From assembly GCF_030012175.1 (NCBI RefSeq), contig NZ_JASCXW010000008.1, positions 1 through 58,443 on the forward strand: a stretch of DNA of 58,443 nucleotides, read 5' to 3'. Below are positions 14,567-29,753 of the stretch, piece after piece. The notes beneath the pieces were generated by a model, which searched no databases, was not told the DNA's origin, and saw only the letters and a list, made by a program, of their open reading frames with translations. Numbering within the stretch: position 1 is the first letter of the stretch; every line of letters begins with the position of its first letter. This stretch comes from Peloplasma aerotolerans. Lineage in GTDB: Bacteria > Bacillota_I > Bacilli_A > Acholeplasmatales > Acholeplasmataceae. The translations under genes and the position numbers were made by a program.

Positions 14567-16741
14567 ATGAAAAAAGTGGTCTTAGGTATTATAGTTTTCT
14601 TCGTCTTATTTCTTGCTAGTGTTGGTATCCAATTTGCCATCAATATGCAAATTAAACCTATTCCAATGAGGCCATTGGAATCTTTTAATGCTGGAGGAAG
14701 TGATCGCTTAATCTATTATTTTGATAAGCATCTTAAAAATGAAGATTTGCCAGAAGGTATTGAACTAACTGATGATTTTATTAATGAAGAATTAGAAGGT
14801 ACTTTTAGATATATTAATGGACGTTATGATGTTGCTGATTTTAGAGTTAACTCATTAGTACGTCTATATTTAGGGTTTAAAGACCATCTACACCCAGACA
14901 CTCAAGAAGATATAAAAACAGTTTTATTAAATTTTAAGTATTGGATGGATCAAGGTGGAGAAGACAGTATGTGTTATTGGTCTGAAAACCATCAGATTTT
15001 ATTTGCAGTAGAAGAATATTTAGTAGGACAAGCTTTTCCTGATGATATTTTTACTGTAGATGGCAAAACAGGATTAGAACATATGGAAATGGCAAAAAAC
15101 AGAATCAATATCTGGATGGAGCAACGTTTCCTATATGGATTCACCGAATGGTATTCAAACAATTATTACCCAGAAGATATATCACCGATGTCTAATTTTA
15201 TCCAATATGCTAATGACCCTGTCATGGTTAACCGTATGAAAATGATTATGGATTTATTATGGTTTGATATGGCAAGTCAAAGTTTTAAATATGAAGGTAT
15301 TGATTCTACAAGCGAACAACCAAGAACATATTATATTTTCAATTCTTCAATGGGCAGAGCATACTCAGATAATAGAGTAAGTGATGATACAGGGAATCGG
15401 ATGAGAAATTATATTGATTTTGTCATGCAACCAGAAGAAACTAAAGGTTTTGAAAATAGTTGGTTTACTTCTAGTAACGGTTTTTTCAATTGCTTTAAGC
15501 AAATGATGGAAGCACTTGATGAGCATGATGAACCTTATTATAGAGTTCCAGATGTAATTAAAGAAATCTTTAATGACTCATCGGAAGAAAAGGTTATTAA
15601 ATCAAGTCAATCTTTAAATGTTGAAGAGTTAGAAGGCGAAGGACTGCTAGGTCTTGAAGATCATCAAATTATGATGCAATGGAATATGGAAGCTTTTAGT
15701 AATCCAGAAGTCGTTGATAATACAATAAAGTATATGAGTAAACATAATATGTTTAGAAATGAATTTTTAAATGATTTTAAAATGGTAAATTTGTGGCCAC
15801 TTAGAGCATTTAACCTTTTACATATGGTGAGCAATCAACTTAATCCATCAACGAATGGTGTCGCGATTGAAAGAGCGAATGTCTACACATACAAAACACC
15901 ACATTATTCTATGCACACTGCACAAGCATACCAACCAGGAGAATATGCAGATCAACATGCTGTTTCTTCAATCAATTTAAGTAACACTGTGTCAGTGTTT
16001 TCAACACAACCCGCTAAAATACCTAGAAGAAGTGGGACGCCAACATACTGGACAGGTAACGGAAGACAACCTTATAGTGTACAGGAAAAGAATGTAAATA
16101 TCAGCATATATCAACCACCTACTAAAGTAGGATTTATGGAACCAATGATACTTAAAGAAACAACACATGTATTTTTTCCTTATCAACTATTTGATGAAGT
16201 AGATGAAACGTATCTAAATCAAGGTTATATCTTTGGTCGTGTTGGCACAAGTATGATTGGTATTAAAGCAAGACATACTCTAGAGTTTGTACCATTTAGT
16301 GTGAGTAGTAACCCAGATGATATGGATGATATGCTCAAACGCGGAAGTGTAGGTAATGTTTTAACTGAGAAATATGATTTAGTTCAAAAGGGTAGTGGAG
16401 ATCATTATTTTGTTACAGAACTATCTACTACAGATGATGAAAGTTTTTCAGCATTTATGAGTAGAATGATGAGTCAAACACTTACATATGATCAAACAAC
16501 CCATACATTGTCCTATTCAACTATTCTAAACAATGAATCTACATTAACAGAACTAATTGCTATTTTTGACACAAGTTTTAGCGTTAATGGACATATTAGA
16601 AATTTAGAATATCAACGTTATGAAAGCAATTATGTAAACGATGGCATCATTAATCGAAAACCTGATGAAATTGAGTTTTTATTTAACGGGAAGTCATTAT
16701 TTCTCGATTATTCAAATCATATACGAACCGTAGGTGACTAA
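14567..16741 (+). CDS. Membrane-anchored protein of unrecognised family, candidate extracellular polysaccharide-cleaving enzyme
   Basis: A single N-terminal membrane segment (about residues 4-24) would leave the remaining 700 residues outside the cell. The first two thirds look mostly helical and the last third strand-rich, as in helical-toroid plus beta-sandwich polysaccharide lyases. Blocks shared with the cytoplasmic paralogue at 18956-20812 include FNFKYWMD-like, WSENHQ (near 138), EWYSNNYYPEDI (near 194) and GVAIERANVYTYKT (near 431). Conserved Asn, His, Tyr and Glu could be catalytic. I do not recognise the family; the enzyme role is inferred from the neighbouring GH105 hydrolase and sugar symporter. 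The ATG at 14567 follows TGAGG; the TTG at 14555 overlaps that site. Confidence 0.55.
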   Translation: MKKVVLGIIVFFVLFLASVGIQFAINMQIKPIPMRPLESFNAGGSDRLIYYFDKHLKNEDLPEGIELTDDFINEELEGTFRYINGRYDVADFRVNSLVRLYLGFKDHLHPDTQEDIKTVLLNFKYWMDQGGEDSMCYWSENHQILFAVEEYLVGQAFPDDIFTVDGKTGLEHMEMAKNRINIWMEQRFLYGFTEWYSNNYYPEDISPMSNFIQYANDPVMVNRMKMIMDLLWFDMASQSFKYEGIDSTSEQPRTYYIFNSSMGRAYSDNRVSDDTGNRMRNYIDFVMQPEETKGFENSWFTSSNGFFNCFKQMMEALDEHDEPYYRVPDVIKEIFNDSSEEKVIKSSQSLNVEELEGEGLLGLEDHQIMMQWNMEAFSNPEVVDNTIKYMSKHNMFRNEFLNDFKMVNLWPLRAFNLLHMVSNQLNPSTNGVAIERANVYTYKTPHYSMHTAQAYQPGEYADQHAVSSINLSNTVSVFSTQPAKIPRRSGTPTYWTGNGRQPYSVQEKNVNISIYQPPTKVGFMEPMILKETTHVFFPYQLFDEVDETYLNQGYIFGRVGTSMIGIKARHTLEFVPFSVSSNPDDMDDMLKRGSVGNVLTEKYDLVQKGSGDHYFVTELSTTDDESFSAFMSRMMSQTLTYDQTTHTLSYSTILNNESTLTELIAIFDTSFSVNGHIRNLEYQRYESNYVNDGIINRKPDEIEFLFNGKSLFLDYSNHIRTVGD

Positions 16742-16742
16742 T

Positions 16743-17495
16743 ATGAAGTTAGGTGTCCAAACATATACGATCAGAAAAATCTTTAAAAAAGATCTATTAT
16801 TTGCATTTGACGAACTTGTTAAATTAGGCATTCATGATGTTGAACTAGCTAGAGTTGATTTGAACAATGATTTGATTGCAACGATGAACAAGAAGAAAAT
16901 GAGCGTGCTATCCATTCAACTTAAATTAAAAGAAATTAATAAAAACTATGAAAAACTTGTTCATTTTTGTAAACAAGTCAACTGTAATATTGTTGTTGTA
17001 TCTGTTTTATCATTAGATGCTATATTGTTTGGTAAAAAAGCGGTTATTAGATTTTGTAATAGGCTTAATGAACTTTCCAAAAAATATGAGAAACATGGCA
17101 TTACCATTGCTTTTCATCATCATAATTTTGAATTTAAAATGATTACAAAGAAAACAAAACTTGATATCATTATGGCTCACACAAATGAACAAGTTAAACT
17201 TGTAACAGATACTTATTGGACAAAAAAAAGCGGAATTGAACCCCATGAGTTACTCCTTCAATATAAAGAACGAATTATAGGCATCCATTTAAGAGATTAT
17301 ATGAAAAATAGTTTTAGGTTTTCAACAGATTGTGAAGTTGGTTATGGTTTAATTGATTTTAATCTAGTATTTGAAAACATCCCAGAGTCACTTCGTTATA
17401 TGGTTATTGAGCAAAACTCAAATTATCCGATACATAGTCTAACCAAGAGCATAAAGTATTTAAAAGAACATCATAGAGAAAAAATAAATTTATAA
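16743..17495 (+). CDS. Sugar phosphate isomerase/epimerase-like TIM barrel protein
   Basis: The protein belongs to the xylose isomerase-like/AP endonuclease 2 barrel family. The opening MKLGVQTYTIR, the metal-binding stretch FHHHNFEF near residue 124, GIHLRDY near 180, and a final MVIEQ near 220 hold the usual Glu/His/Asp ligands. Enzymes of this type isomerise or epimerise sugars or inosose derivatives. The placement between the extracellular protein and the symporter suggests conversion of an imported sugar. The ATG at 16743 sits five bases after AGGTGA and overlaps the end of the previous gene region, indicating coupling. The substrate is unknown. Confidence 0.75.
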   Translation: MKLGVQTYTIRKIFKKDLLFAFDELVKLGIHDVELARVDLNNDLIATMNKKKMSVLSIQLKLKEINKNYEKLVHFCKQVNCNIVVVSVLSLDAILFGKKAVIRFCNRLNELSKKYEKHGITIAFHHHNFEFKMITKKTKLDIIMAHTNEQVKLVTDTYWTKKSGIEPHELLLQYKERIIGIHLRDYMKNSFRFSTDCEVGYGLIDFNLVFENIPESLRYMVIEQNSNYPIHSLTKSIKYLKEHHREKINL

Positions 17496-17514
17496 TAAAT
17501 AAAGGGAGAAGTAC

Positions 17515-18948
17515 ATGGAAAAGTTGCAAATGAAAAAAAGAGAAAAATTAATATTTGCTTGGGGAGACGTTTTTGGCGGTGGTGCACAAGCGATGATTGC
17601 AGTGCTTTACCTCATATTTTTAACTGACGTTATTGGATTAAATCCGGCAATTGCAGCAACCGCTATTTTAATTTCTAAAATATGGGATGCTGTAAGTGAT
17701 CCTTTGATGGGAATAGCTAGTGATAATACTAGAACTAAAATGGGTAGAAGAAGACCGTATATTTTAGGTGGTGGATTTTTAGTTGTTATCGCTTTTGCTT
17801 TAATGTGGTTACCGATTGGTGGATGGCAATCAGAAACGGCTAAAGTTATTTTTGCAGTTTCGACATTCTTGTTTTATAGTACAATATCAACTGTTATTGC
17901 CGTTCCTTATAGTTCCTTATCAGCTGAAATTACGACCAATGTAAAAGAAAGAAACAACGTTAATGTCATTAGACTTGTTGTTTCTACAGTAGCATCTGCA
18001 GTTTGTACACTAGTACCAACAATGATTCTAGAGTCTTTTAAAGCAGGTAATATAGGTATTGAAACTTTTTACATAGTCGTTGCTTTAGGATTTGGCTTAT
18101 TCTTTGCTCTACCTTTGATATTGATTGGTTTTTTCACAAAAGAACGCGTCCCTATGCCAGAAACTAAATCAATATTTGAAGTGAAATCATTCGTTAAGCC
18201 ACTAAAGGTTAAAGCTTTTAGAGGATTAGTTTATATGTATTTATGTCAAAGTATTTCAATGGATATATTATCTGCGGGTATCATTTATTATTCACTATAT
18301 GTTGTTAGTGGAAGTGCAACAGTATTTTTAGGGATATTTATTGGTGTACAACTTTTAATGTTCCCGGTGATTAATAAACTAGTTAATATTGTAGATAAAA
18401 AGAAAATATATTATTTTGGATTACCTATTGCGATTATTGGATTTATTTTTGTAGGACTTTATCCATCTGATTGGCCAATCATTGGTGCGTATGCTCTAAC
18501 AGGTGTTACAGCTTTTGGATTTGCTGGAGCACAGTTTATGAGTTGGATCATATTCCCAGATGCCGTAGATGCTGGAGAATTAAAGTTAAGAGAAAGACCT
18601 ACTGGAAGTTTTAGTGGTATTATGACATTTATTCGAAAAGCAAGTTCAGCAATCGCTATCCAGATTTTTGGGATTATGCTTTTTGTCTCTGGATATGTGA
18701 AGCCAACAAATGGAGAAGTATTACCTATACAACCTCCAAATGCACTGCTAGGCATTAGACTAGCAATGTCATTAAGTTTTGTTATATTAATGAGTGTCGG
18801 TTATATAGTGGCTAGAAGATTTGTGTTAACCAATGAAAGAAGTTTACTGGTAAGAAAATATTTGCATATATATCAAACTGAGAGTCTTGATCATTTATCT
18901 GAACAAGATCAAGTAGAATTAGATAAGCTACAATCAGAAATTTTTTAA
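17515..18948 (+). CDS. GPH-family glycoside/uronide:cation symporter
   Basis: The 477-residue protein has about twelve membrane segments. Family marks include FAWGDVFGGGAQ at the start, SKIWDAVSDPLMGIASDNT near residues 53-71, and GRRRPYILGG next to it, the conserved loop of the MelB/UidB/YihO (GPH, MFS-related) carriers. These import glycosides, pentosides and hexuronides with a cation. Between the anchored and the cytoplasmic paralogues it probably brings in oligosaccharide fragments. GGGAGA precedes the ATG, with 19 bases from the previous gene. The exact sugar is not readable. Confidence 0.85.
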   Translation: MEKLQMKKREKLIFAWGDVFGGGAQAMIAVLYLIFLTDVIGLNPAIAATAILISKIWDAVSDPLMGIASDNTRTKMGRRRPYILGGGFLVVIAFALMWLPIGGWQSETAKVIFAVSTFLFYSTISTVIAVPYSSLSAEITTNVKERNNVNVIRLVVSTVASAVCTLVPTMILESFKAGNIGIETFYIVVALGFGLFFALPLILIGFFTKERVPMPETKSIFEVKSFVKPLKVKAFRGLVYMYLCQSISMDILSAGIIYYSLYVVSGSATVFLGIFIGVQLLMFPVINKLVNIVDKKKIYYFGLPIAIIGFIFVGLYPSDWPIIGAYALTGVTAFGFAGAQFMSWIIFPDAVDAGELKLRERPTGSFSGIMTFIRKASSAIAIQIFGIMLFVSGYVKPTNGEVLPIQPPNALLGIRLAMSLSFVILMSVGYIVARRFVLTNERSLLVRKYLHIYQTESLDHLSEQDQVELDKLQSEIF

Positions 18949-18955
18949 GGAGAAA

Positions 18956-20812
18956 ATGATGGCAGTCAAAGAAGATGTAGGTATGGACATCAAGATGAAT
19001 ATCAAGTGTTTTAAAGACATTGTACTTTTGGATCAAGGTCAGTCTATTGATGAATCACAGATTCTAGATCTAGTAGACTTTGTAAACAATCGATATGATT
19101 GTGCAGACTTTAGACTCATTTGCTTGATTCGTGCATACTTAGGTTATAAAGATTTATTATCAAATGAAACAATACATCAAATTGAACAGTCTATATTTAA
19201 CTTCAAGTATTGGATGGATGAACCTGGTGAAGATGGAATGTGTTTTTGGTCTGAAAATCACCAACTACTTTTTCATGCATGTGAATATTTAGCAGGCATT
19301 ACTTTTCCGAATCAGGTTTTTTTAAATGATGGAGAAACTGGAAAAGAACATGCTGATAAAGCAAGACCTAAAATTATGAGATGGCTAAAATATAAATTTC
19401 AATTTGGATTTATAGAGTGGCACTCCAACACGTATTATGAAGAAGACATTGCACCATTATCAGTGCTTGTTGATTTTGCAAAAGATGAAGAAATTATTGA
19501 GAAATCAAAAATCATTTTAGATCTTTTACTTCTTGACATGGCAATGCATAGTTATGAAGGGTACTTTGTTGCAACCAGTGGTCGCTGTTATGAAAATCAA
19601 AAAATGAACAGAGAGCTTGCTGATGTCAACGATATCCTAGCATATGCTTTTGGTCTTCAAAAAAGAGATTATGATTACCAAAGAATTTCAGCAATGTTTT
19701 TGCTATGTAAAAATTATAAAGTTCCCAAGATCATTAAGGAGATAGCCAAAACTAAGGGCACTCAGATTATAAAAGACTCGATGGGACTCAACTTAAAAGA
19801 AGTAAAAAAAGAAATACCAAATGATGAGATTGATGATCGAGGTATGTTCTTGTGGCAAATGGAAGCTTTCACAAATAAAGAGTCAATCAATATGACGATG
19901 GATATTTTTAATGCTTGGAAGTTACACGATAATAATTTCTTAAAAGATTTACAAAGCGTCAACATCCCAATATTAAGAAAACTAGGTTTATTACCATTAG
20001 TTGTTAAACTCCTAAACCCAGCAACTCAAGGTGTTGCCATTGAAAGAGCGAATACATATACATATAAAACAGATTATTACATGCTTTCAACCGCTCAAAA
20101 GTATCATCCAAAATCTTTTGGAGATCAACAACATATTTGGCAAGCAACGTTGCCAAATAATATTAGCGTTTTTTCTACACATCCAGGTAGTCCAATGTTT
20201 GATGATGCAGCAAGAAATTTCTCTCCATCTTTTTGGGTCGGAAATGGTATCAATCCACATGCTGTCCAAGATAAGAATTTCTTATTTTTAATGTATGACC
20301 TAACAGCAAGAAAAGGCTATTTAGAGCGATTTAGACAAACTCATATTCATTTCCATTTTCCGACCGATAAATTTGATAAAGTTATTGAAAAAGAAAAAAA
20401 AGTGTATGCAAAATCAGACAAATCGTACATTGGAATTGTATCCTCAAGTGGACACAAAATAATGAATAAAAATGAACTAGTTGTCGAAGGTAAAAAGAGT
20501 CAATTTGTGGTTGTTTTAGGTGATGAATATTCAGATGAATCATTCGATAAGTTCATTGAAAAAATAGAAAATTATGATTTTAAATTCACGAGTAAAAAAA
20601 TAGTATTAAAAGCGGATCAACATTATCAACTGAGATTTAAAAAAGCATTTAAAATTAACGGAGTTGTTCAAAACACAGAGTATCAAAGATTTGAAACACC
20701 ATATGTTGAGGCGAAAAGAAAACCGGAAGAGTTAACGATTAATTATCATAATAAAACACTCTATATTGATTTTGATCGGATGATAAGAAAGGAGATTTCT
20801 CATGTTGGATAA
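18956..20812 (+). CDS. Cytoplasmic paralogue of the anchored carbohydrate-operon protein
   Basis: This 618-residue protein has no signal or membrane segment. It is collinear with the protein at 14567-16741: NNRYDCADFR, FNFKYWMDEPGEDGM, WSENHQ (near residue 99), EWHSNTYYEEDI (near 155), GVAIERANTYTYKT (near 359) and FWVGNGINPHAVQDKN. Since both copies share the same motifs, they probably share a reaction, one outside and one inside the cell. A role as lyase or hydrolase making the substrate of the GH105 enzyme fits, but it is inference. AAGGAG precedes two adjacent ATGs (18956, 18959). Its end overlaps the next gene by 11 bases. Confidence 0.55.
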   Translation: MMAVKEDVGMDIKMNIKCFKDIVLLDQGQSIDESQILDLVDFVNNRYDCADFRLICLIRAYLGYKDLLSNETIHQIEQSIFNFKYWMDEPGEDGMCFWSENHQLLFHACEYLAGITFPNQVFLNDGETGKEHADKARPKIMRWLKYKFQFGFIEWHSNTYYEEDIAPLSVLVDFAKDEEIIEKSKIILDLLLLDMAMHSYEGYFVATSGRCYENQKMNRELADVNDILAYAFGLQKRDYDYQRISAMFLLCKNYKVPKIIKEIAKTKGTQIIKDSMGLNLKEVKKEIPNDEIDDRGMFLWQMEAFTNKESINMTMDIFNAWKLHDNNFLKDLQSVNIPILRKLGLLPLVVKLLNPATQGVAIERANTYTYKTDYYMLSTAQKYHPKSFGDQQHIWQATLPNNISVFSTHPGSPMFDDAARNFSPSFWVGNGINPHAVQDKNFLFLMYDLTARKGYLERFRQTHIHFHFPTDKFDKVIEKEKKVYAKSDKSYIGIVSSSGHKIMNKNELVVEGKKSQFVVVLGDEYSDESFDKFIEKIENYDFKFTSKKIVLKADQHYQLRFKKAFKINGVVQNTEYQRFETPYVEAKRKPEELTINYHNKTLYIDFDRMIRKEISHVG

Positions 20813-21857
20813 AATATATTTTGATAAGGTTGTAGAACTAGCAGACCATATAAAAAGCACGTGGAACCCTAAAATGAAATGGATGTGGGGTGAAGCGCTT
20901 TTCGGATATTCTTTAAGTTTGCTAGACACTCATTTGAAAGAAGATCGATACACTGAATTCTTAACGAAGTATTGTGACTACTATGTCCAAATTCCTCCAC
21001 GTGTTGATCAAAGTGATACATCAGCTCCTGCATTAATCACATATGCAATGTATAAGAAAACAAAGAATGAAGATTATAAGAAATTGACTGATCGTGTTTT
21101 ATACTATATAAAAAATGAACCACGTTTAATTGAAGATTCAGTTAATCATTTAGGCAACAGTTTAGAAGGAAAGTTTTATCCTAAATCGATTTGGGTCGAT
21201 AGTTTAATGATGTTTTCTGTGTTTCCTTCTTTATATGCAAAAGAAAATAACGACCAAGCAATGATGGACATTGCTAGTCGTCAACCTAGAGTGATGGCAA
21301 AGTATATGCAAGACCCTGTTGATAAACTTTGGTATCATAGTTATTGGACCAAACAAAAAACCCATTACCCAAGAAGAAAACTTTATTGGGGTAGAGGTAA
21401 TGGATGGGTAATTGCATCGTTACCGATGATTTTAGAAAACATAGGAAATCACGAAGAAAGAGAAAACATTATTCAAATCTTTAAAGAAACTGCTTATGCA
21501 CTTCTACCTTATCAAAGAGCGGATGGAGCATTTGAAACTGTCTTTAATAAAGTTGGTAAAACTTATAGAGAATTATCGTTTACAGCATTGGTTGCTGCTG
21601 GATTTATGCATGGATATAATTTAGGGTTACTAAGTGAAGTTTATTTAGAAGCAGGTCTAAAAGCTTATCAATGTGTAGTTGATGCATTGATATATGAGAA
21701 AGATGATATCTATATGCCTGAGGTAAGTGGACCAACGATACCATTACCATTATTCCCATATATTGGATATAAGATTATACCAAGAGGAAAGAACTGGTCA
21801 TTTGGTTTAGCAGCATTAATATTTGCAGCCATTCAGTTTGACAAAATTAAAAAATAA
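20802..21857 (+). CDS. GH105/GH88 unsaturated uronyl hydrolase
   Basis: The 351-residue protein has the helical (alpha/alpha)6 pattern of YteR-type glycosidases. WVDSLMM near residues 130-136 contains the expected catalytic aspartate, and WGRGNGWV near 196-203 is the strongly conserved substrate-binding block. The end PRGKNWSFGLAALIFAA is also typical. These cytoplasmic enzymes hydrate the 4,5-double bond left by polysaccharide lyases and release an unsaturated uronate, so a lyase should act upstream of it. It is the last gene of the operon: AAGGAG precedes the ATG, which overlaps the previous gene, and a terminator follows. Confidence 0.85.
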   Translation: MLDKIYFDKVVELADHIKSTWNPKMKWMWGEALFGYSLSLLDTHLKEDRYTEFLTKYCDYYVQIPPRVDQSDTSAPALITYAMYKKTKNEDYKKLTDRVLYYIKNEPRLIEDSVNHLGNSLEGKFYPKSIWVDSLMMFSVFPSLYAKENNDQAMMDIASRQPRVMAKYMQDPVDKLWYHSYWTKQKTHYPRRKLYWGRGNGWVIASLPMILENIGNHEERENIIQIFKETAYALLPYQRADGAFETVFNKVGKTYRELSFTALVAAGFMHGYNLGLLSEVYLEAGLKAYQCVVDALIYEKDDIYMPEVSGPTIPLPLFPYIGYKIIPRGKNWSFGLAALIFAAIQFDKIKK

Positions 21858-21882: not shown

Positions 21883-22983
21883 TTAAGCATTTTCAATAAT
21901 GCCTGCCATTGGAATAATTAAGAATGCTAACCATGATATATGGAACAAATTAAAGAAGTATCCTAGTGAGAAAAACAGAATAACTGCAATAAATGGTGTA
22001 ATTGCGACAAAATGGAACTTCTTTTCAAACAAAACAATAGCAGCAACCGGTACTAATAAGAAGACTTGCCATGCGTACGCCCAACCATTTAATAAAATAC
22101 CTAGTAATAAGAAAGTCACAATACTAAGGATGATAATGGAAATAAATTTTAGCGATTTAGCACGATTTGCCTTGCTTAGTTTACTATCATAGAAGAAATG
22201 AATGTCACTAAAGATAATACCCATAATAACTGGTAGAGCAAACCCTAATGCACCCATTGACCACATATCATGAACATATCCCATGTATAAATAAAATCCT
22301 ATAGCTAATAAGAATGACAACTCATAAGCTAATACAATCCACTTGTTTGGTTTATATAAAATACCAATCATTGGAACGATCAAGAAGACCAACCAACCAG
22401 GATTCCATAAGTCATAATATGTACCTAGAATCATAAATACAATAAGTGCAATAAATGGTGAGATAGCAACAAATGTATCTTTTTTCTTTGTTGTTAAAAC
22501 GATTGAAGCTATAGGGATTAATAAAAATACTAACCAACCAGGGTGCCATAAATTATATTCAAATCCGATAAACAAAAATGTTAGCACACTTATAAAAGGT
22601 GAAAGTCCGATTAAGCCTTCTTTAATACTTGAATGAAATGCAATGGCAACCACAGGTGTTAGCAAGAATACAAGCCAACCCGGATGCCATAATTCAAAGG
22701 CGAAACCTAAAACCATATAAACAATTAAACTAATAAATGGAGATAAGGCAATTAACTTATTTCTAATATTTTTATGCTTTTTAATTCTTAGTGTATCTAT
22801 TAAATCATAACTAACCTCTTTAGGATCCCCTAACATAGACCAAACTTCTTCATCAGATTTACCAGTACTTAATGCATCATCGTATAATTGGCCATAATCC
22901 ATAAGAATCTCATGAATATCATCTTTACTTGCTTGAAATTTCATTAATTCAGCTTTTAACTTTTCTAAATATTTACTTTTCAT
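21883..22983 (-). CDS. HAAS-domain membrane protein with six internal repeats
   Basis: Residues 1-75 resemble the HAAS/DUF1700 cytoplasmic module (YLEKLKAEL, DYGQLYDDAL, MLGDPKEVSYDLID), which is usually encoded beside a PadR regulator, as here. The rest is membrane-embedded: six units of about 45-50 residues, each a helix followed by a block such as LWHPGWLVFLLIPIASI, giving about twelve membrane segments. The first three units are most alike; units four to six lose the Trp-His-Pro core. It overlaps the padR stop by 11 bases and has AGGAGG upstream. The function is unknown; a membrane-stress or envelope-sensing role is likely by context. Confidence 0.7.
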   Translation of the reverse strand: MKSKYLEKLKAELMKFQASKDDIHEILMDYGQLYDDALSTGKSDEEVWSMLGDPKEVSYDLIDTLRIKKHKNIRNKLIALSPFISLIVYMVLGFAFELWHPGWLVFLLTPVVAIAFHSSIKEGLIGLSPFISVLTFLFIGFEYNLWHPGWLVFLLIPIASIVLTTKKKDTFVAISPFIALIVFMILGTYYDLWNPGWLVFLIVPMIGILYKPNKWIVLAYELSFLLAIGFYLYMGYVHDMWSMGALGFALPVIMGIIFSDIHFFYDSKLSKANRAKSLKFISIIILSIVTFLLLGILLNGWAYAWQVFLLVPVAAIVLFEKKFHFVAITPFIAVILFFSLGYFFNLFHISWLAFLIIPMAGIIENA

Positions 22984-23636: not shown

Positions 23637-24656
23637 ATGATTATTCAAATGAAGAAAAACTCTACACAAAAAGAGTACCAAAAGATTGTTGATTACTTAA
23701 AAGCAAAGAATCTTGAAATTATAGATGCAAGTAGCGATGAGGTTCGTGTTTTTGGTGTTATCGGAGATACGACAACAATTGAACCAAATGACTTGTATGC
23801 ATTTGAAGGTGTTAGAGAAGTTACAAGAGTATCAACACCATTTAAGAAAGCCAGTCGGAGTTTTAAACGAAAAGATACTGTTGTTAAGATTAAAGAAGGT
23901 TTAGAGATTGGTGGCAATCATATTATTATGATGGCAGGACCTTGTTCAGTTGAATCGGAACAACAATTAAGAACTATTGCAAAAAGCGTTAAAAAATCTG
24001 GTGCTCATGTCTTAAGAGGTGGAGCATATAAACCAAGAACATCTCCATATGCTTTTCAAGGTTTAGAAATTGAAGGATTAAAGCTATTAAAACAAATTGG
24101 TGATGAGACAGGGTTAGCAATTGTTTCTGAAATTCCAAGTGCTGATTTATTACCAGAATTTGAAGCTTATGTTGATATAATCCAAGTTGGCGCAAGAAAC
24201 ATGCAAAACTTCCATCTTTTAAAAGCGTTAGGTAAAAGTACAAAACCAATTTTATTAAAAAGAGGGTTGGCATCTACGATTGAAGAATGGTTGATGTCAG
24301 CAGAATATATTATGGCTGGAGGAAATCCGAATGTGATTTTGTGCGAACGCGGCATTCGTACATTTGAAAAATATACAAGAAACACTTTAGACATTAGTGC
24401 AGTACTAGCTGTTAAAGAATTATCTCACTTACCAGTGATTATCGATCCATCACATGCAGCAGGTCGTTGGGATATGATTGAAAAATTATCTTTAGCTAGC
24501 GTAGCAGTTGGGGCACACGGTCTTATTGTTGAAGTTCATAATGATCCAGAACATGCTTTAAGCGATGGAGCACAATCGTTAAAACTAAATAAATTTAGTC
24601 AAATGATGGATGAACTCGATAAAATGGCAGTTGTCTTAGGACATAAATTAAAATGA
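23637..24656 (+). CDS. aroF: 3-deoxy-7-phosphoheptulonate (DAHP) synthase
   Basis: The enzyme condenses phosphoenolpyruvate and erythrose 4-phosphate, the first step toward chorismate. About 70 N-terminal residues form a ferredoxin-like regulatory domain, then the KDO8P-synthase-like barrel: MAGPCSVES near 100, LRGGAYKPRTSPYAFQG near 123, CERGIRTFE near 234 and IDPSHAAGR near 262. This is the type I-beta enzyme seen in Thermotoga and many Bacillota; the extra domain mediates feedback inhibition by Tyr or Phe in relatives. AAAGGAG precedes the ATG. It overlaps tyrA by four bases and is preceded by the Tyr leader. Confidence 0.95.
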   Translation: MIIQMKKNSTQKEYQKIVDYLKAKNLEIIDASSDEVRVFGVIGDTTTIEPNDLYAFEGVREVTRVSTPFKKASRSFKRKDTVVKIKEGLEIGGNHIIMMAGPCSVESEQQLRTIAKSVKKSGAHVLRGGAYKPRTSPYAFQGLEIEGLKLLKQIGDETGLAIVSEIPSADLLPEFEAYVDIIQVGARNMQNFHLLKALGKSTKPILLKRGLASTIEEWLMSAEYIMAGGNPNVILCERGIRTFEKYTRNTLDISAVLAVKELSHLPVIIDPSHAAGRWDMIEKLSLASVAVGAHGLIVEVHNDPEHALSDGAQSLKLNKFSQMMDELDKMAVVLGHKLK

Positions 24657-25483
24657 AAATCTTTATTGTAGGACTAGGATTGATTGGTGCATCCTATGCC
24701 GAAGGATTGCATAAAAATGGTCATGTCGTCTATGGCTATGATCAAAAAATAGAAAATATTAAACAAGCGATTGAAATTGGATTTATTGAAAAGGAAAATC
24801 ATATCGAACAAATAACCAAAGTTGATTTAATCATACTTGCTTTATATCCAAAAGATAATGTTATATTTATTAAAAATCACGTCAATCTTCTTAGACCAGG
24901 TCAAATGGTTACAGATGTTAGTGGAACTAAAGCATGGATGATGAACGAAATAGAACAAATCCTTCCAGAAAAAATATCTTATACTTCACATCATCCAATG
25001 GCTGGAAAAGAAACCAATGGTTTTGAATCAAGAGATTATCGAATGTTTCGTCAAGCAAACTTTTTAATCGTTACAGGAAAAAGAAGTGTTAAAAAAGATC
25101 AAGATATATTAAGACTTATCGCAAACAACCTAAAATTTGGTAAAATAACAGTAGTGGATGCGAAAACACACGATGAATTGATTGCTTTTACAAGTCAACT
25201 AACACATGTGTTGGCTATTTCACTTGTACAAAGTGATCATTTAGATGAAACCAAGCACGCAACAGGAGATTCATATCGTGATTTAACTAGAATTGCTAAA
25301 ATCAATGAAACGATGTGGACAGAACTATTTTTCGAAAACAAAGATGCACTATTATTAAAAATAAACGATTTTATGAAAGAATTAAAACATGTTAAGGAAT
25401 TATTATTAGTCGAGGATACAGAGAGTTTAACAACCTATTTAAAAGAAGCTAAAGAAAAGAGGAAATCTTTTGACATTCATTAA
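24653..25483 (+). CDS. tyrA: Prephenate dehydrogenase TyrA
   Basis: TyrA oxidatively decarboxylates prephenate to 4-hydroxyphenylpyruvate, the tyrosine precursor. The NAD-binding Rossmann motif GLGLIGASYAEGL opens the protein. SGTKAWM near 83, HPMAGKETNGFE near 114-125 and LTHVLAISL near 180 are characteristic catalytic-region blocks. The 276-residue length fits enzymes without a C-terminal ACT domain, so end-product control may fall on the leader and DAHP synthase instead. Its ATG overlaps the aroF stop (ATGA). Being second in the operon agrees with tyrosine-dominated control. Confidence 0.93.
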   Translation: MKIFIVGLGLIGASYAEGLHKNGHVVYGYDQKIENIKQAIEIGFIEKENHIEQITKVDLIILALYPKDNVIFIKNHVNLLRPGQMVTDVSGTKAWMMNEIEQILPEKISYTSHHPMAGKETNGFESRDYRMFRQANFLIVTGKRSVKKDQDILRLIANNLKFGKITVVDAKTHDELIAFTSQLTHVLAISLVQSDHLDETKHATGDSYRDLTRIAKINETMWTELFFENKDALLLKINDFMKELKHVKELLLVEDTESLTTYLKEAKEKRKSFDIH

Positions 25484-26483
25484 AATGCCTGATTATTCCA
25501 TTTACATCGAAAATAACGGATTAAATAATCTATTTAAGTACATTGAAGAGATATACCCATATAAAGATGTGTTTGTTGTTACCGATCAAACGGTATTCAA
25601 ACTATACCATCAAAGACTTTTAGATGTACTACCCGATTATAGAATCTCTTTTGTTATTGTCTCAGATGGAGAAAAATCAAAATCAATTGAAGTTTATCAA
25701 TATGTTATTGAACAATTGATTGAACAAGGTATGAAAAGAACCCATTTATTGATATCACTTGGTGGAGGTGTTGTCGGAGATCTTGCTGGATTTGTTTCTG
25801 CCACATTATATCGTGGTGTATCTTATATTCAAATACCAACAACCTTACTTGCTCAAGTTGATAGTAGTATCGGCGGAAAAGTAGCAATCGACTTAAAAGA
25901 GGGAAAAAATTTGATAGGTGCTTTTTATAATCCTAAGCTTGTACTCATTGATCCTGTTTTCCTAAGAACTCTTTCAAAACGTGAGTACGCAAATGGACTA
26001 GCCGAAATGATTAAAGCAGGATTAATTGGTGATAAAAAACTCTATCATTTTTTACTAGAGAATGAAGAAGTTGGAGAACATGAAATCGCGATGGCGATTC
26101 ATGTCAAAAGAGAAGTTGTTTTAACAGATCCTTACGACCATAAAGAAAGAATGTATTTAAACTTTGGCCATACATTTGGACACGCGATTGAGAAAAAGCA
26201 TGGTTATGAACTATATAAACATGGTGAAGCTATTAGTTATGGTATGCTAATCGCGTTAGAAATTGGCGTTCATATGAATGAGACAAAGCCTGAGTTATAC
26301 GATGAAGTTAAAGACCAATTGATTAAAAGAGGATTAGTTAAAGAACCTCTATTGTTATTAGAGAATTATAAAGATGAAATTTTAACTGACAAGAAAAATC
26401 TAGCTGATGGTTTAAGGTTTATTATTGTACCAAAGGTTGGTGAGGTTAAAATCGTTAAAGTGAAAGCAAGTGATTTAACATGA
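25470..26483 (+). CDS. aroB: 3-dehydroquinate synthase AroB
   Basis: AroB converts DAHP to 3-dehydroquinate with NAD and a divalent metal. The signature LGGGVVGDLAGFVSATLYRG (near residue 97) and QIPTTLLAQVDSSIGGKVAID (shortened here to its first part) are diagnostic, and metal ligands occur in NFGHTFGHAIE near 230. The protein has about 337 residues, normal size. The start is TTG at 25470: AGAGG lies seven bases upstream, while the first ATG (25485) is too far from any ribosome site. It overlaps the end of tyrA by 14 bases. Confidence 0.94.
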   Translation: MTFIKMPDYSIYIENNGLNNLFKYIEEIYPYKDVFVVTDQTVFKLYHQRLLDVLPDYRISFVIVSDGEKSKSIEVYQYVIEQLIEQGMKRTHLLISLGGGVVGDLAGFVSATLYRGVSYIQIPTTLLAQVDSSIGGKVAIDLKEGKNLIGAFYNPKLVLIDPVFLRTLSKREYANGLAEMIKAGLIGDKKLYHFLLENEEVGEHEIAMAIHVKREVVLTDPYDHKERMYLNFGHTFGHAIEKKHGYELYKHGEAISYGMLIALEIGVHMNETKPELYDEVKDQLIKRGLVKEPLLLLENYKDEILTDKKNLADGLRFIIVPKVGEVKIVKVKASDLT

Positions 26484-27739
26484 ATATAACGATTACACCA
26501 AAAAAACTTTCTGGAGAAGTATCGGTTGTTTCATCTAAGTCATTATCACATAGATATTTAATTGCAGCAGGGTTATCAAAGGGAACAAGTGTGATTGAAA
26601 ACATTCTTGACTCTGATGATTTGGATGCGACTAAAGAAGCATTGAAATCTTTAGGTGTAATAATAGATGGTAACCAAATTACTGGTGGTAACCTTAAAAC
26701 TGTCAAAGATACGATTGATGCAAAAGAGTCTGGTTCTACATTAAGATTCATGATTCCAATCGCTATGCTTTTAAGAGATAAAATAACTTTTACTGGACAA
26801 GGAAGATTACCCAAAAGACCATTAGATGTCTATTTTGATATTTTTAAACAAAAACATTGTTACTATAATCAATTGACTACAGACTATCTACCATTAGAAG
26901 TCAAAGGTCAATTGAAGCCAGGATTCTATCAAGTGCAAGGAGATATAAGTTCTCAGTTTTTAACAGGACTTTTATTCGCATTACCACTATTAAAAAAAGA
27001 TTCCGTTATAGAACTTATTACACCATTAGAATCTAAAGGTTATATTGATTTAACAATGGACGTTTTAAAATCTTTTGGTATTCAAATTGTACATATTGAT
27101 GAGTTTATTTACATTAAAGGTAGCCAATCATACTTGCCACAAAGTGTAACCGTTGAAGGTGATTATTCTCAAGCTGCTTTTTGGATGGTTGCTGGATTAA
27201 TTGGAAACCATATTGAACTATTTAATTTAGCACTTGACAGTAAACAAGGGGATAAAAAAATAATTGATATCATCAAAGAAATGAATGGGAATATTACCTA
27301 TAAAAGTCTATCTAAATCTTATGTAGTAGAACCAAGCCTAACCAAAGGTGCAACAATTGATTTAATGCATGTCCCTGATCTTGGACCTATACTGATGGTG
27401 CTCGCTGCGCTTAGCGAAGGAACAACAAAATTCATTAATACTAGTCGTCTTAGAATTAAAGAATCTGATCGCCTACAAGCAATGTATGAAGTTTTAATTA
27501 AGTTTGATGTAGATATGGAGATATTGGGTGATGAAGCGATAATCCATGGTAAAAAAATTCTAAAAGGTCATCAAAGCTTTGATTCTTATGGAGATCATAG
27601 AATTACAATGGCAATCGCAATTGCGGCAATCAAAGCAGATGGACCTGTTACTATATTAAACGCTGGTGTAGTTAATAAATCATATCCAGAGTTTTTCAAA
27701 GTATATCAATCTTTAGGAGGTGCTATTCATGAGTCTTGA
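26480..27739 (+). CDS. aroA: 3-phosphoshikimate 1-carboxyvinyltransferase (EPSP synthase)
   Basis: AroA joins phosphoenolpyruvate to shikimate 3-phosphate. Family motifs are present: SKSLSHRYLIAAGLSKGTS near residues 14-32, ESGSTLRFMIPI near 87, GDISSQFLTGLLFALP near 154, DLGPILMVLAALSEGTT near 299, and SRLRIKESDRL near 320. It is close to the usual length (419 residues). The start overlaps the aroB stop by four bases, and chorismate mutase begins inside its 3' end. Shikimate kinase, which makes its substrate, is not in this cluster. Confidence 0.94.
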   Translation: MNITITPKKLSGEVSVVSSKSLSHRYLIAAGLSKGTSVIENILDSDDLDATKEALKSLGVIIDGNQITGGNLKTVKDTIDAKESGSTLRFMIPIAMLLRDKITFTGQGRLPKRPLDVYFDIFKQKHCYYNQLTTDYLPLEVKGQLKPGFYQVQGDISSQFLTGLLFALPLLKKDSVIELITPLESKGYIDLTMDVLKSFGIQIVHIDEFIYIKGSQSYLPQSVTVEGDYSQAAFWMVAGLIGNHIELFNLALDSKQGDKKIIDIIKEMNGNITYKSLSKSYVVEPSLTKGATIDLMHVPDLGPILMVLAALSEGTTKFINTSRLRIKESDRLQAMYEVLIKFDVDMEILGDEAIIHGKKILKGHQSFDSYGDHRITMAIAIAAIKADGPVTILNAGVVNKSYPEFFKVYQSLGGAIHES

Positions 27740-27983
27740 GAAATATAGAAAAATGATTGAAGATATCGATATTAAAATGATGGACTTATTCGAAAAAAGA
27801 ATGCAAGTCTCTTTATTGATTGGTAAATATAAGAAAGATCATCAACTACCTATATTAGATAATAGTAGGGAAATAGAAATCCTAAACAAGAGAAAACAAC
27901 AACTAAATAATGATGAACTTTGGCCACACTATGAATCATTTATAAAAGAAATTATGCGTCTATCTAAGGAGTATCAAAAGTGA
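27729..27983 (+). CDS. Chorismate mutase, AroQ type, monofunctional
   Basis: This protein of about 84 residues converts chorismate to prephenate and so feeds TyrA. It has the three-helix AroQ pattern: YRKMIEDIDIKMMDLFEKR with an early Arg and the Arg of EKRM, then IGKYK with the active-site Lys, and a closing Arg/Glu-rich helix. The ATG at 27729 lies eight bases after AGGAGG within the end of aroA; an in-frame GTG at 27720 overlaps that ribosome site. It stands alone rather than being fused to aroF or a prephenate enzyme. Confidence 0.88.
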   Translation: MSLEKYRKMIEDIDIKMMDLFEKRMQVSLLIGKYKKDHQLPILDNSREIEILNKRKQQLNNDELWPHYESFIKEIMRLSKEYQK

Positions 27984-28768
27984 AGATGCGTTATGGTTTA
28001 ATAGGCAAAAATATTCAATACAGCAAATCTCCTACAATTCATGAGTTCATGGCTAAAAAACTAAACATTGATTTACGCTATGATTTGTTTGATATTGAGG
28101 AATCTGACATTCCGCATTTGTTTAAACACTTAAGAAATTACGTTTTCAAAGGTTTCAATGTAACCATACCATTTAAACAGATTGTGATGAAACATGTTGA
28201 TGTTCTTACTTCCAAAGCAAAACGAATTAAGGCAGTAAATACCATCTATATTAAAGATGGAAAAATAGTTGGAGATAATACTGATTATGACGGTTTCTTA
28301 GGTTTACTTAAGATGAGTAAAATTAATGTTGAAAATCAAAGGATCTTTATTTTAGGAACTGGTGGTGCAGCAAAAGCTGCATATGTAGTTTTAACTGATC
28401 TTGGAGCAGATGTTACTGTTGTGACTAGGAATACAAACAATATAGATCCTATGTTTCAAAAGGTTATTACTTATAGTAAGTTATCATCTGATCAAGTTGA
28501 TATTTATGTTCAAGCAACACCAATTGGAACGTATCCAAAAGTAACAGAGTCTGTTTTAAATCAATCATTGGTTGCAGGTAAAACAGTTATTGAATTGATT
28601 TATAATCCACCAATTACTCAAATGATGAAGTATGCTAGTAAAAGTTATGGTGGTGCAAACATGTTAATTTTACAAGCTTTAAGAAGTGAAGAGATATGGT
28701 TCAATCAAAAAATCAGTATAAACAATCAGTTAATAGAAGAATTAAAGGAAGTGATTTATAGTGAATAG
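27980..28768 (+). CDS. aroE: Shikimate dehydrogenase AroE
   Basis: AroE reduces 3-dehydroshikimate to shikimate with NADPH. Visible motifs are YSKSPTIHEFMA near residue 14 (substrate binding), NVTIPFKQ near 60 with the catalytic Lys, NTDYDGFL near 95, and the nucleotide-binding GTGGAAKAA near 126. The length of 262 residues is normal. The start is GTG at 27980: AAGGAG sits eight bases upstream, and the following ATG is too far. It overlaps the mutase gene by four bases. The preceding dehydratase step (aroD) is absent from the window. Confidence 0.93.
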   Translation: MKMRYGLIGKNIQYSKSPTIHEFMAKKLNIDLRYDLFDIEESDIPHLFKHLRNYVFKGFNVTIPFKQIVMKHVDVLTSKAKRIKAVNTIYIKDGKIVGDNTDYDGFLGLLKMSKINVENQRIFILGTGGAAKAAYVVLTDLGADVTVVTRNTNNIDPMFQKVITYSKLSSDQVDIYVQATPIGTYPKVTESVLNQSLVAGKTVIELIYNPPITQMMKYASKSYGGANMLILQALRSEEIWFNQKISINNQLIEELKEVIYSE

Positions 28769-29753
28769 TTATGGTCGTTTTTTTCAAGTAACATTATATG
28801 GCGAATCACACCAAGATGCTATTGGTGTTGTTATTGATGGAATGCCTTCAGGTATATTGATTGATGAATCAAAAATAAAAGCTGATTTAGTAAAAAGACA
28901 ACCTGGAGCAATAGGAACTACACCTAGAAAAGAAGCTGATGAGTTTAGAATTACATCAGGTGTCTTTAATGGATATTCAACAGGATCACCCATTCATCTG
29001 ATGATTGAAAATAAAAATATTCAATCTAAAGATTATGAGCATTTAAAAAAACATCCTAGACCAGGACATGCTGATTTTGCAGCAAATGTTAAGTATCGTG
29101 GATTCCAAGATTATCGAGGCGGGGGAAGGTTTTCAGGTAGACTTACAGCAGCATTGGTTGCTGCTGGAGCAATTGCTAAAATGATTATCCCTTTCGAATT
29201 ATCTCACAAATTATTACAAGTTGGGAATTTAACTGATTTGACTTTGATTGATGAATATTTGGAAGAAGTTAGTAAATTAGGCGATTCAGTTGGAGGTTTG
29301 ATCGAAGTAAAAGCAACCAACATGATTGTTGGATTAGGAGAACCTTTTTTCAACAAACTAGATTCTGAAATTGGAAAAATGATGTTTTCAATACCAGCTG
29401 TAAAAGGTGTTGAAATCGGAGTTGGCTTTGATTGTTTACTAATGAAGGGTAGCACTTATAATGATGAGATTATAGATGTACAAGGAAAAACAAAAACCAA
29501 CCATAGTGGTGGGGTTACCGGTGGTTTAAGTAACGGTAACGATTTAGTTGTTAAAGTAGTAATTAAACCTACATCTAGTATTCAAAAAGAACAAGAAACA
29601 TTTAATTTTGATACAGGTAAAATTGAATCTCTTGAAATAGGTGGACGTCACGATGTCTGTATTGCTAGAAGAGTTGGAATCGTTTTAGAAAATGCTTTAG
29701 CGATTGTTCTTGCAGATTTATACTTAATCCAAAAATCGTATATCACTAAATAG
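28761..29753 (+). CDS. aroC: Chorismate synthase AroC
   Basis: AroC eliminates phosphate from EPSP using reduced flavin, giving chorismate. Motifs run in order: YGESHQDAIGVVIDGMPSG at the start, TGSPIHLMIEN near 73, PGHADF near 94, DYRGGGRFSGRLTAALVAAG near 109-128, and GGRHDVC near 294. At 330 residues it is shorter than most (about 350-390), chiefly through a compact middle. The start is GTG at 28761, overlapping aroE by eight bases. It closes the aro operon, and a terminator overlaps its stop codon. Confidence 0.93.
   Translation: MNSYGRFFQVTLYGESHQDAIGVVIDGMPSGILIDESKIKADLVKRQPGAIGTTPRKEADEFRITSGVFNGYSTGSPIHLMIENKNIQSKDYEHLKKHPRPGHADFAANVKYRGFQDYRGGGRFSGRLTAALVAAGAIAKMIIPFELSHKLLQVGNLTDLTLIDEYLEEVSKLGDSVGGLIEVKATNMIVGLGEPFFNKLDSEIGKMMFSIPAVKGVEIGVGFDCLLMKGSTYNDEIIDVQGKTKTNHSGGVTGGLSNGNDLVVKVVIKPTSSIQKEQETFNFDTGKIESLEIGGRHDVCIARRVGIVLENALAIVLADLYLIQKSYITK

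Follow-up and report, generated by a model that had tools for sequence, protein, structure and literature searches.

Which enzyme supplies the unsaturated substrate of a GH88/GH105-type uronyl hydrolase when its operon encodes no known lyase? The question is raised by a five-gene operon (positions 14567-21857, forward strand) in a 58,443-nucleotide stretch of Peloplasma aerotolerans DNA (contig NZ_JASCXW010000008.1 of assembly GCF_030012175.1), referred to here as the window. In order, the operon encodes an outer protein that we call Fo, a TIM-barrel protein, a GPH-family symporter, an inner protein that we call Fi, and the GH88/GH105-type hydrolase. The intergenic gaps are short or negative; the genes for Fo and the TIM-barrel protein share 8 bases, and those for Fi and the hydrolase share 11 bases. 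Our analysis leads us to think it probable that Fo and Fi are uronic-acid poly- and oligosaccharide lyases, each built as an alpha/alpha toroid with a beta-sandwich, that act first outside and then inside the cell.

An earlier reading, made from the sequence alone, had described Fo and Fi as paralogues that flank a sugar symporter. Consistent with this, Fo (14567..16741, +) and Fi (18956..20812, +) align by BLASTP with 35% identity over 646 columns at 345 bits, which makes them true paralogues rather than a chance match, and the gene between them (17515..18948, +) encodes a GPH-family sugar:cation symporter (MFS_2, 217 bits; TIGR00792, 208 bits, under its cut-off of 231). Fo is 724 amino acids long when counted from its ATG (not 725, as first given) and has an N-terminal membrane anchor (14567..14647, +; a helix of residues 2-27 in the model); Fi has the 618 amino acids originally stated and neither signal nor anchor. 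The last gene of the operon (20802..21857, +) matches PF07470 at 169 bits, and its product can be aligned with YteR as well as with an unsaturated rhamnoglycuronyl hydrolase; the catalytic-type residues Asp133 (in IWVDSLMM) and Asp72 are invariant in all 37 operon copies. Scans of the operon proteins against Pfam and NCBIfam gave no match to a known lyase, as the sequence-only reading had held.

Neither Fo nor Fi reaches any model in Pfam or NCBIfam, and none of 61 family members scanned singly against Pfam matched a family above chance. A profile of these 61 members, searched against all PDB sequences at E values up to 10, returned just three spurious matches and thus no sequence similarity to solved members of PL8, PL12, PL15, PL17, PL21, PL23, PL33, PL35, PL38 or PL39. 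Comparison of the family with heparinase II/III (PF07940) by hhalign gave a probability of 0.15% (a weak test, with six sampled sequences past the motif filter), and we found no paper that mentions the motif WSENHQ. A contig scan of GTDB genomes recovered at least 381 confirmed relatives, from Firmicutes, Acholeplasma-type bacteria, Actinobacteria, Spirochaetes, Bacteroidota, Proteobacteria and some archaea, and 199 plasmid records, including those of Rhizobium and haloarchaea, carry relatives that are mostly annotated, where at all, as hypothetical protein. Two archaeal members, one from a metagenome-assembled genome of Lokiarchaeota (L066) and one from a Haladaptatus plasmid (L101), were probably gained from bacteria; the latter lies amid Gfo/Idh/MocA oxidoreductases and TIM-barrel isomerases, not GH88. 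We rate the family as a new, unclassified group of putative toroid-type uronate beta-eliminases, as compared with Pfam, NCBIfam and the PDB and not with CAZy families that lack Pfam models.

The predicted fold points to polysaccharide lyases. In the AlphaFold2 models (mean predicted local distance difference test scores of 93 for Fi and 90 for Fo) both proteins consist of a helical toroid followed by an antiparallel beta-sandwich, and they match lyases of families PL12, PL8, PL17, PL15, PL21 and PL35. All 50 PDB entries that VIA-align listed for Fi are polysaccharide lyases or their human relative dermatan sulfate epimerase, with the best match to the PL12 structure 5jmf (Z 13.7, root-mean-square deviation 6.9, 381 aligned residues), followed by 4fnv (Z 13.0, deviation 5.3, 391 aligned) and the PL8 structures 1cb8 and 1egu (Z 11.8 for both); lyases likewise account for all 13 Foldseek matches of Fi under an E value of 0.001. 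The low aligned TM-scores and the large deviations indicate that the relation to toroid lyases is distant. (Note that PL5 and PL38 were not among the fold matches listed for Fi, which excludes nothing, and that a viral fold library gave weak matches only, including baculovirus ODV-E66, which has a relative of solved structure described as a chondroitin lyase.) Thus the comparison with toroid lyases that the sequence-only reading had called for places both predicted models among them, with PL12, PL8, PL17 and PL35 in the top rows. Since alpha/alpha barrels are common to several hydrolases, with GH146 and GH92 far down the Foldseek list, and since some family members have GH99, GH92 or GH38 neighbours, we considered that the scaffold might instead carry a glycoside hydrolase or another non-eliminating enzyme. 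We regard this as very improbable, because all of the top fold rows are lyases and because adjacency or fusion to an unsaturated-uronyl hydrolase (see below) demands an unsaturated product.

The conserved residues likewise speak for a lyase. In an alignment of 67 family sequences, alphaproteobacterial and haloarchaeal members included, the residues E100, N101, H102, F122, G129, W143, E154, S157, Y160, D164, R210, Y212, Q391 and P434 (Fi numbering) are invariant in 67/67, and the invariance of the Glu-Asn-His group, of Glu, Ser and Tyr, and of the Arg/Tyr pair reaches down to 23% identity. In Fi, the predicted catalytic Asn101-His102 lie in the WSENHQ block (19247..19264, +), the predicted catalytic Tyr160 in the EWHSNTYYEED block (19415..19447, +), and Arg210 and Tyr212, which may contact the carboxylate or substrate, in Arg-Cys-Tyr (19583..19591, +); in Fo the corresponding blocks are WSENHQ (14978..14995, +; predicted catalytic Asn141-His142) and EWYSNNYY (15146..15169, +; predicted catalytic Tyr200). 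The spacing of 59 residues between N101 and Y160 comes near the 53-57 residues that separate the catalytic Asn and Tyr in PL12, PL17, PL35 and PL39 (PMC12088678). In addition, the family motif G-x-x-E-x-x-S-x-x-Y-Y resembles the heparinase motif DG-xxx-E-x-S-xx-YH. We infer from this conservation that the invariant residues form one active site. Of the four shared blocks originally pointed out, all are present in both proteins; GVAIERAN and TYKT proved to be clade-specific, and the family-wide invariants fall in WSENHQ and EWxSNxYYxED only. Every close homologue that shares the operon retains these two blocks, and homologues at 23-29% identity retain their core residues.

GH88/GH105 enzymes require a 4,5-unsaturated uronyl end on their substrate, so that adjacency and fusion to such an enzyme imply that the family provides an unsaturated uronyl product. 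Among 79 loci that were fetched and whose neighbouring open reading frames (ORFs) were compared (78 usable, with neighbours counted by simple ORF calling), GH88 is the immediate neighbour of the family gene in 34/78, mostly with an overlap of a few bases. In four more loci one continuous reading frame encodes the family protein followed by a GH88 domain (L052:1729-4650; L062:9986-13144; L070:8732-12880; L081:9983-12898), and Pfam confirmed this domain in three of the four fusions. A GPH symporter occurs in 42 loci beyond the window. One locus (L031) copies the window operon gene for gene and adjoins kduD, kduI, a TIM-barrel gene, an IclR regulator, kdgK and eda, with kduD, kduI and eda above their NCBIfam cut-offs; kduI is also close to the family gene in L039, L054, L068 and L072. 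Homologues in the range of 23-29% identity show similar arrangements: in Rhizobium the family gene is followed by GH88, GH28 and an ABC transporter, in Catenovulum by GH88 and an MFS transporter, in Thioclava it stands beside GH88 with kduD-kduI and rhamnose mutarotase, and in Pseudosulfitobacter kduI and the family gene occur with kduD, with GH88 nearby. In Bacteroidota, one locus (L084) comprises SusC, SusD, GH5, GH99, the family gene and GH88.

The P. aerotolerans genome itself has a compact eda-kdgK-IclR-TIM barrel-kduI-kduD cluster on another contig (C45; L108, about 70.3-75.2 kb), far from the operon; this cluster covers every step between unsaturated uronate and the end products pyruvate and glyceraldehyde-3-phosphate. 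Within the genus, kduI is present in 12/12 genomes that bear the family (in one as fragments only) and in 1/8 without it (Fisher p=1e-4, a value that ignores shared ancestry). The genome also encodes a second GH88 enzyme elsewhere and, on contig C34 (L110 8021-9763), a heparinase II/III-like protein with NH and DGSYFEGSTYYH motifs, for which phmmer against the PDB gave repeat artefacts only.

The pair divides between the two sides of the membrane. In the family tree Fo and Fi fall in two deep clades, with support of 0.88 and 1.0, and the N-terminal stretch is strongly hydrophobic throughout the Fo-side clade (36/36) but in no member of the Fi-side clade (0/34), so that the pair does not stem from a recent duplication. 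Moreover, the hydrophobic helix of Fo is kept in all 10 orthologues, and two other loci (L054 and L068) likewise hold one Fo-side and one Fi-side member. Judging from these sequences, the compartment split is an old division. Accordingly, of the earlier idea that the two proteins act on polymer outside and on oligomer inside, the location of the anchored and unanchored proteins bears out one half; the assignment of substrates is unsupported.

Neither sequence nor genomic context separates a lyase from a uronate dehydratase, and the same context would arise if Fi, or both proteins, were of the latter kind: such an enzyme would take water, rather than a sugar, off a saturated uronic acid that forms the non-reducing end, and so prime it for GH88/GH105. 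Two unrelated dehydratases work beside GH105/GH88, namely P29_PDnc (PMC8511951, PMC6168547), which is of similar length and has a reported two-domain toroid/beta-sandwich fold, and the enzymes formerly known as GH154 (PMC12269599); such a role would also suit a cytoplasmic enzyme supplied by a glucuronide-type symporter. Nevertheless, the residue pattern of P29 (D248, E254, E255, D269, D290, R300 or R230, K303, Y306) is absent from all 67 aligned members when up to two mismatches are allowed. The GH154-type structure 9o4u (BcGDH), which is shorter and has a single alpha/alpha domain, is only a weak fold match at rank 50 and is not matched by the family profile, assuming that the 2026 copy of the PDB sequences includes it. 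Furthermore, a dehydratase tethered outside the cell would fit poorly with a cytoplasmic GH88 enzyme, and the combination of Asn-His and Tyr resembles that of lyases. We thus view a dehydratase as a rather unlikely alternative. We give a similarly low chance to a mixed arrangement, in which the outer clade would be true lyases and the inner clade uronate dehydratases (or oligosaccharide-specific lyases), as sister enzymes repeatedly kept in one operon; if so, polymer cutting outside and end-priming inside would be done by sister enzymes.

Several further points weigh against assigning both proteins to the lyases. At the level of sequence, neither Pfam, NCBIfam and the PDB profile searches nor an hhalign comparison with a few heparinase II/III sequences revealed homology to any proven lyase, and the fold score of Fo is only about Z 9, a range compatible with a mere common arrangement, although lyases still lead. 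In about half of the loci sampled, no GH88 gene lies within three genes of the family gene; some of these loci end at contig edges and others contain Gfo/Idh/MocA oxidoreductases or sulfatases. In addition, each of the 10 Fo orthologues from this bacterial group has Ala in place of H393 and Gln in place of H409, two histidines that are present in 94% and 99% of the aligned family, and Fo and Fi may therefore differ in chemistry. These replacements raise the prospect that Fo is an inactive surface-binding protein and Fi the sole enzyme; we consider this improbable, since the same 10 orthologues fully keep the Asn, His, Tyr, Glu and Arg core, and since H409 is retained by 99% of the alignment, other anchored proteins among them. 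On balance, we favour the lyase assignment on the basis of fold, residues, surface anchoring and contexts of the polysaccharide utilization locus type, with greater confidence in the case of Fo than in that of Fi. The sequence-only reading, in proposing a lyase family that it could not place, is supported by the fold, the GH88 fusion and adjacency, the kdu linkage and the invariant residues, with the reservation of a dehydratase. (A separate, recurrent context without GH88 combines a ThuA-like protein with Gfo/Idh/MocA oxidoreductases; it was seen in L037, L041, L048, L074, L088 and L092.)

Computation shows that the two proteins are related, which fold class they belong to, how they divide between compartments, which residues are invariant, and that the family is linked to the unsaturated-uronate pathway and both linked and fused to GH88; beta-elimination itself, the residue roles and the order of steps we infer. 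Tethered Fo would cut a uronate-containing polymer outside the cell by beta-elimination, the GPH symporter would bring in the short products, and cytoplasmic Fi would cut them further, so that every product would carry a 4,5-unsaturated uronyl residue at its end. Once the GH88/GH105 enzyme had taken this residue off, KduI, KduD, KdgK and Eda, whose genes lie elsewhere in the genome, would convert it to pyruvate and glyceraldehyde-3-phosphate. In the active site, Asn101 (with Arg210 or other residues) may neutralise the carboxylate, His102 and/or a residue of the beta-domain may take the C5 proton, and Tyr160 may protonate the leaving group. The alphaproteobacterial contexts (GH28, rhamnose mutarotase) point to pectic or rhamnogalacturonan-type polymers, those in Bacteroidota and Paenibacillus (GH99, GH92, GH38) to mannose-containing uronans, and sulfatases to sulfated ones. 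Because the contexts differ across lineages, substrate specificity probably varies within the family.

A widespread family, with > 380 genomic loci, therefore has no Pfam or NCBIfam name. If its members are lyases (or dehydratases), many genomes thought unable to open uronate polymers would gain an entry to the pathway, orphan GH88/GH105 operons would become readable, and new enzymes would be at hand for uronans of the pectic, algal or mannan type. The operon would also be a simple test case for one fold divided between outside and inside.

Of the remaining genes, the second of the operon (16734..17495, +) encodes a TIM-barrel protein of the sugar-phosphate isomerase type (AP_endonuc_2), according to Pfam and NCBIfam scans and neighbourhood comparison. 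It resembles IolE weakly (54 bits against a cut-off of 290) and is retained in most genomes of the group, with related copies near kduI in L068 and L072. We set aside the idea that it substitutes for KduI, since a genuine KduI is encoded elsewhere in the genome; nor is it closely related to the TIM-barrel protein of the kdu cluster. A MocR protein encoded upstream was ruled out as the operon's regulator, as it is PdxR by equivalog score and lies beside pdxS/pdxT. Downstream, on the reverse strand (21883-22983), is a gene for a 366-amino-acid membrane protein with an N-terminal helical domain followed by several tandem WHPGWLVFLL-type transmembrane modules. Positions 23637-29753 hold a shikimate/tyrosine run (DAHP synthase, prephenate dehydrogenase, AroB, AroA, AroE and AroC, named by ORF reading), which is notable for a small Acholeplasma-like genome.

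When set beside known systems, the family shares with P29_PDnc/PL37 of Formosa agariphila a length of about 620 amino acids, a helical toroid with a small C-terminal beta-sandwich and a GH105 partner, but lacks its catalytic D248/R230/K303 pattern (compared by the published residue pattern only). GH154, now beta-D-glucuronate dehydratases (BcGDH, BT_3677), resembles the family in having a GH88 partner and making an unsaturated end, but BcGDH is a single alpha/alpha domain with no sequence match to the family. Heparinase II/III offers an analogy in its motifs (NH...DGxxxExSxxYH, as against NH...GxxExxSxxYY in the family), although the hhalign value for the six sampled sequences and the lack of a PF07940 match in the 61 members set the two apart. 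The toroid lyases (PL12 heparinase III, PL8, PL15, PL17, PL21, PL35 and PL39) show no detectable sequence or profile similarity to the family; the candidate residues H393 and H409 of the family's beta-domain, missing in Fo, stand at another distance than the toroid-lyase His, and the stretch from Tyr to the beta-domain is about 100 residues longer than in PL12 or PL35 (an estimate from residue numbers). Nonetheless, the fold predicted for the two domains of the family agrees with theirs, as does the partnership with GH88/GH105 and Kdu enzymes, and the family's candidate Asn(-His) is followed by a Tyr at a similar distance (53-59 residues over the whole set).

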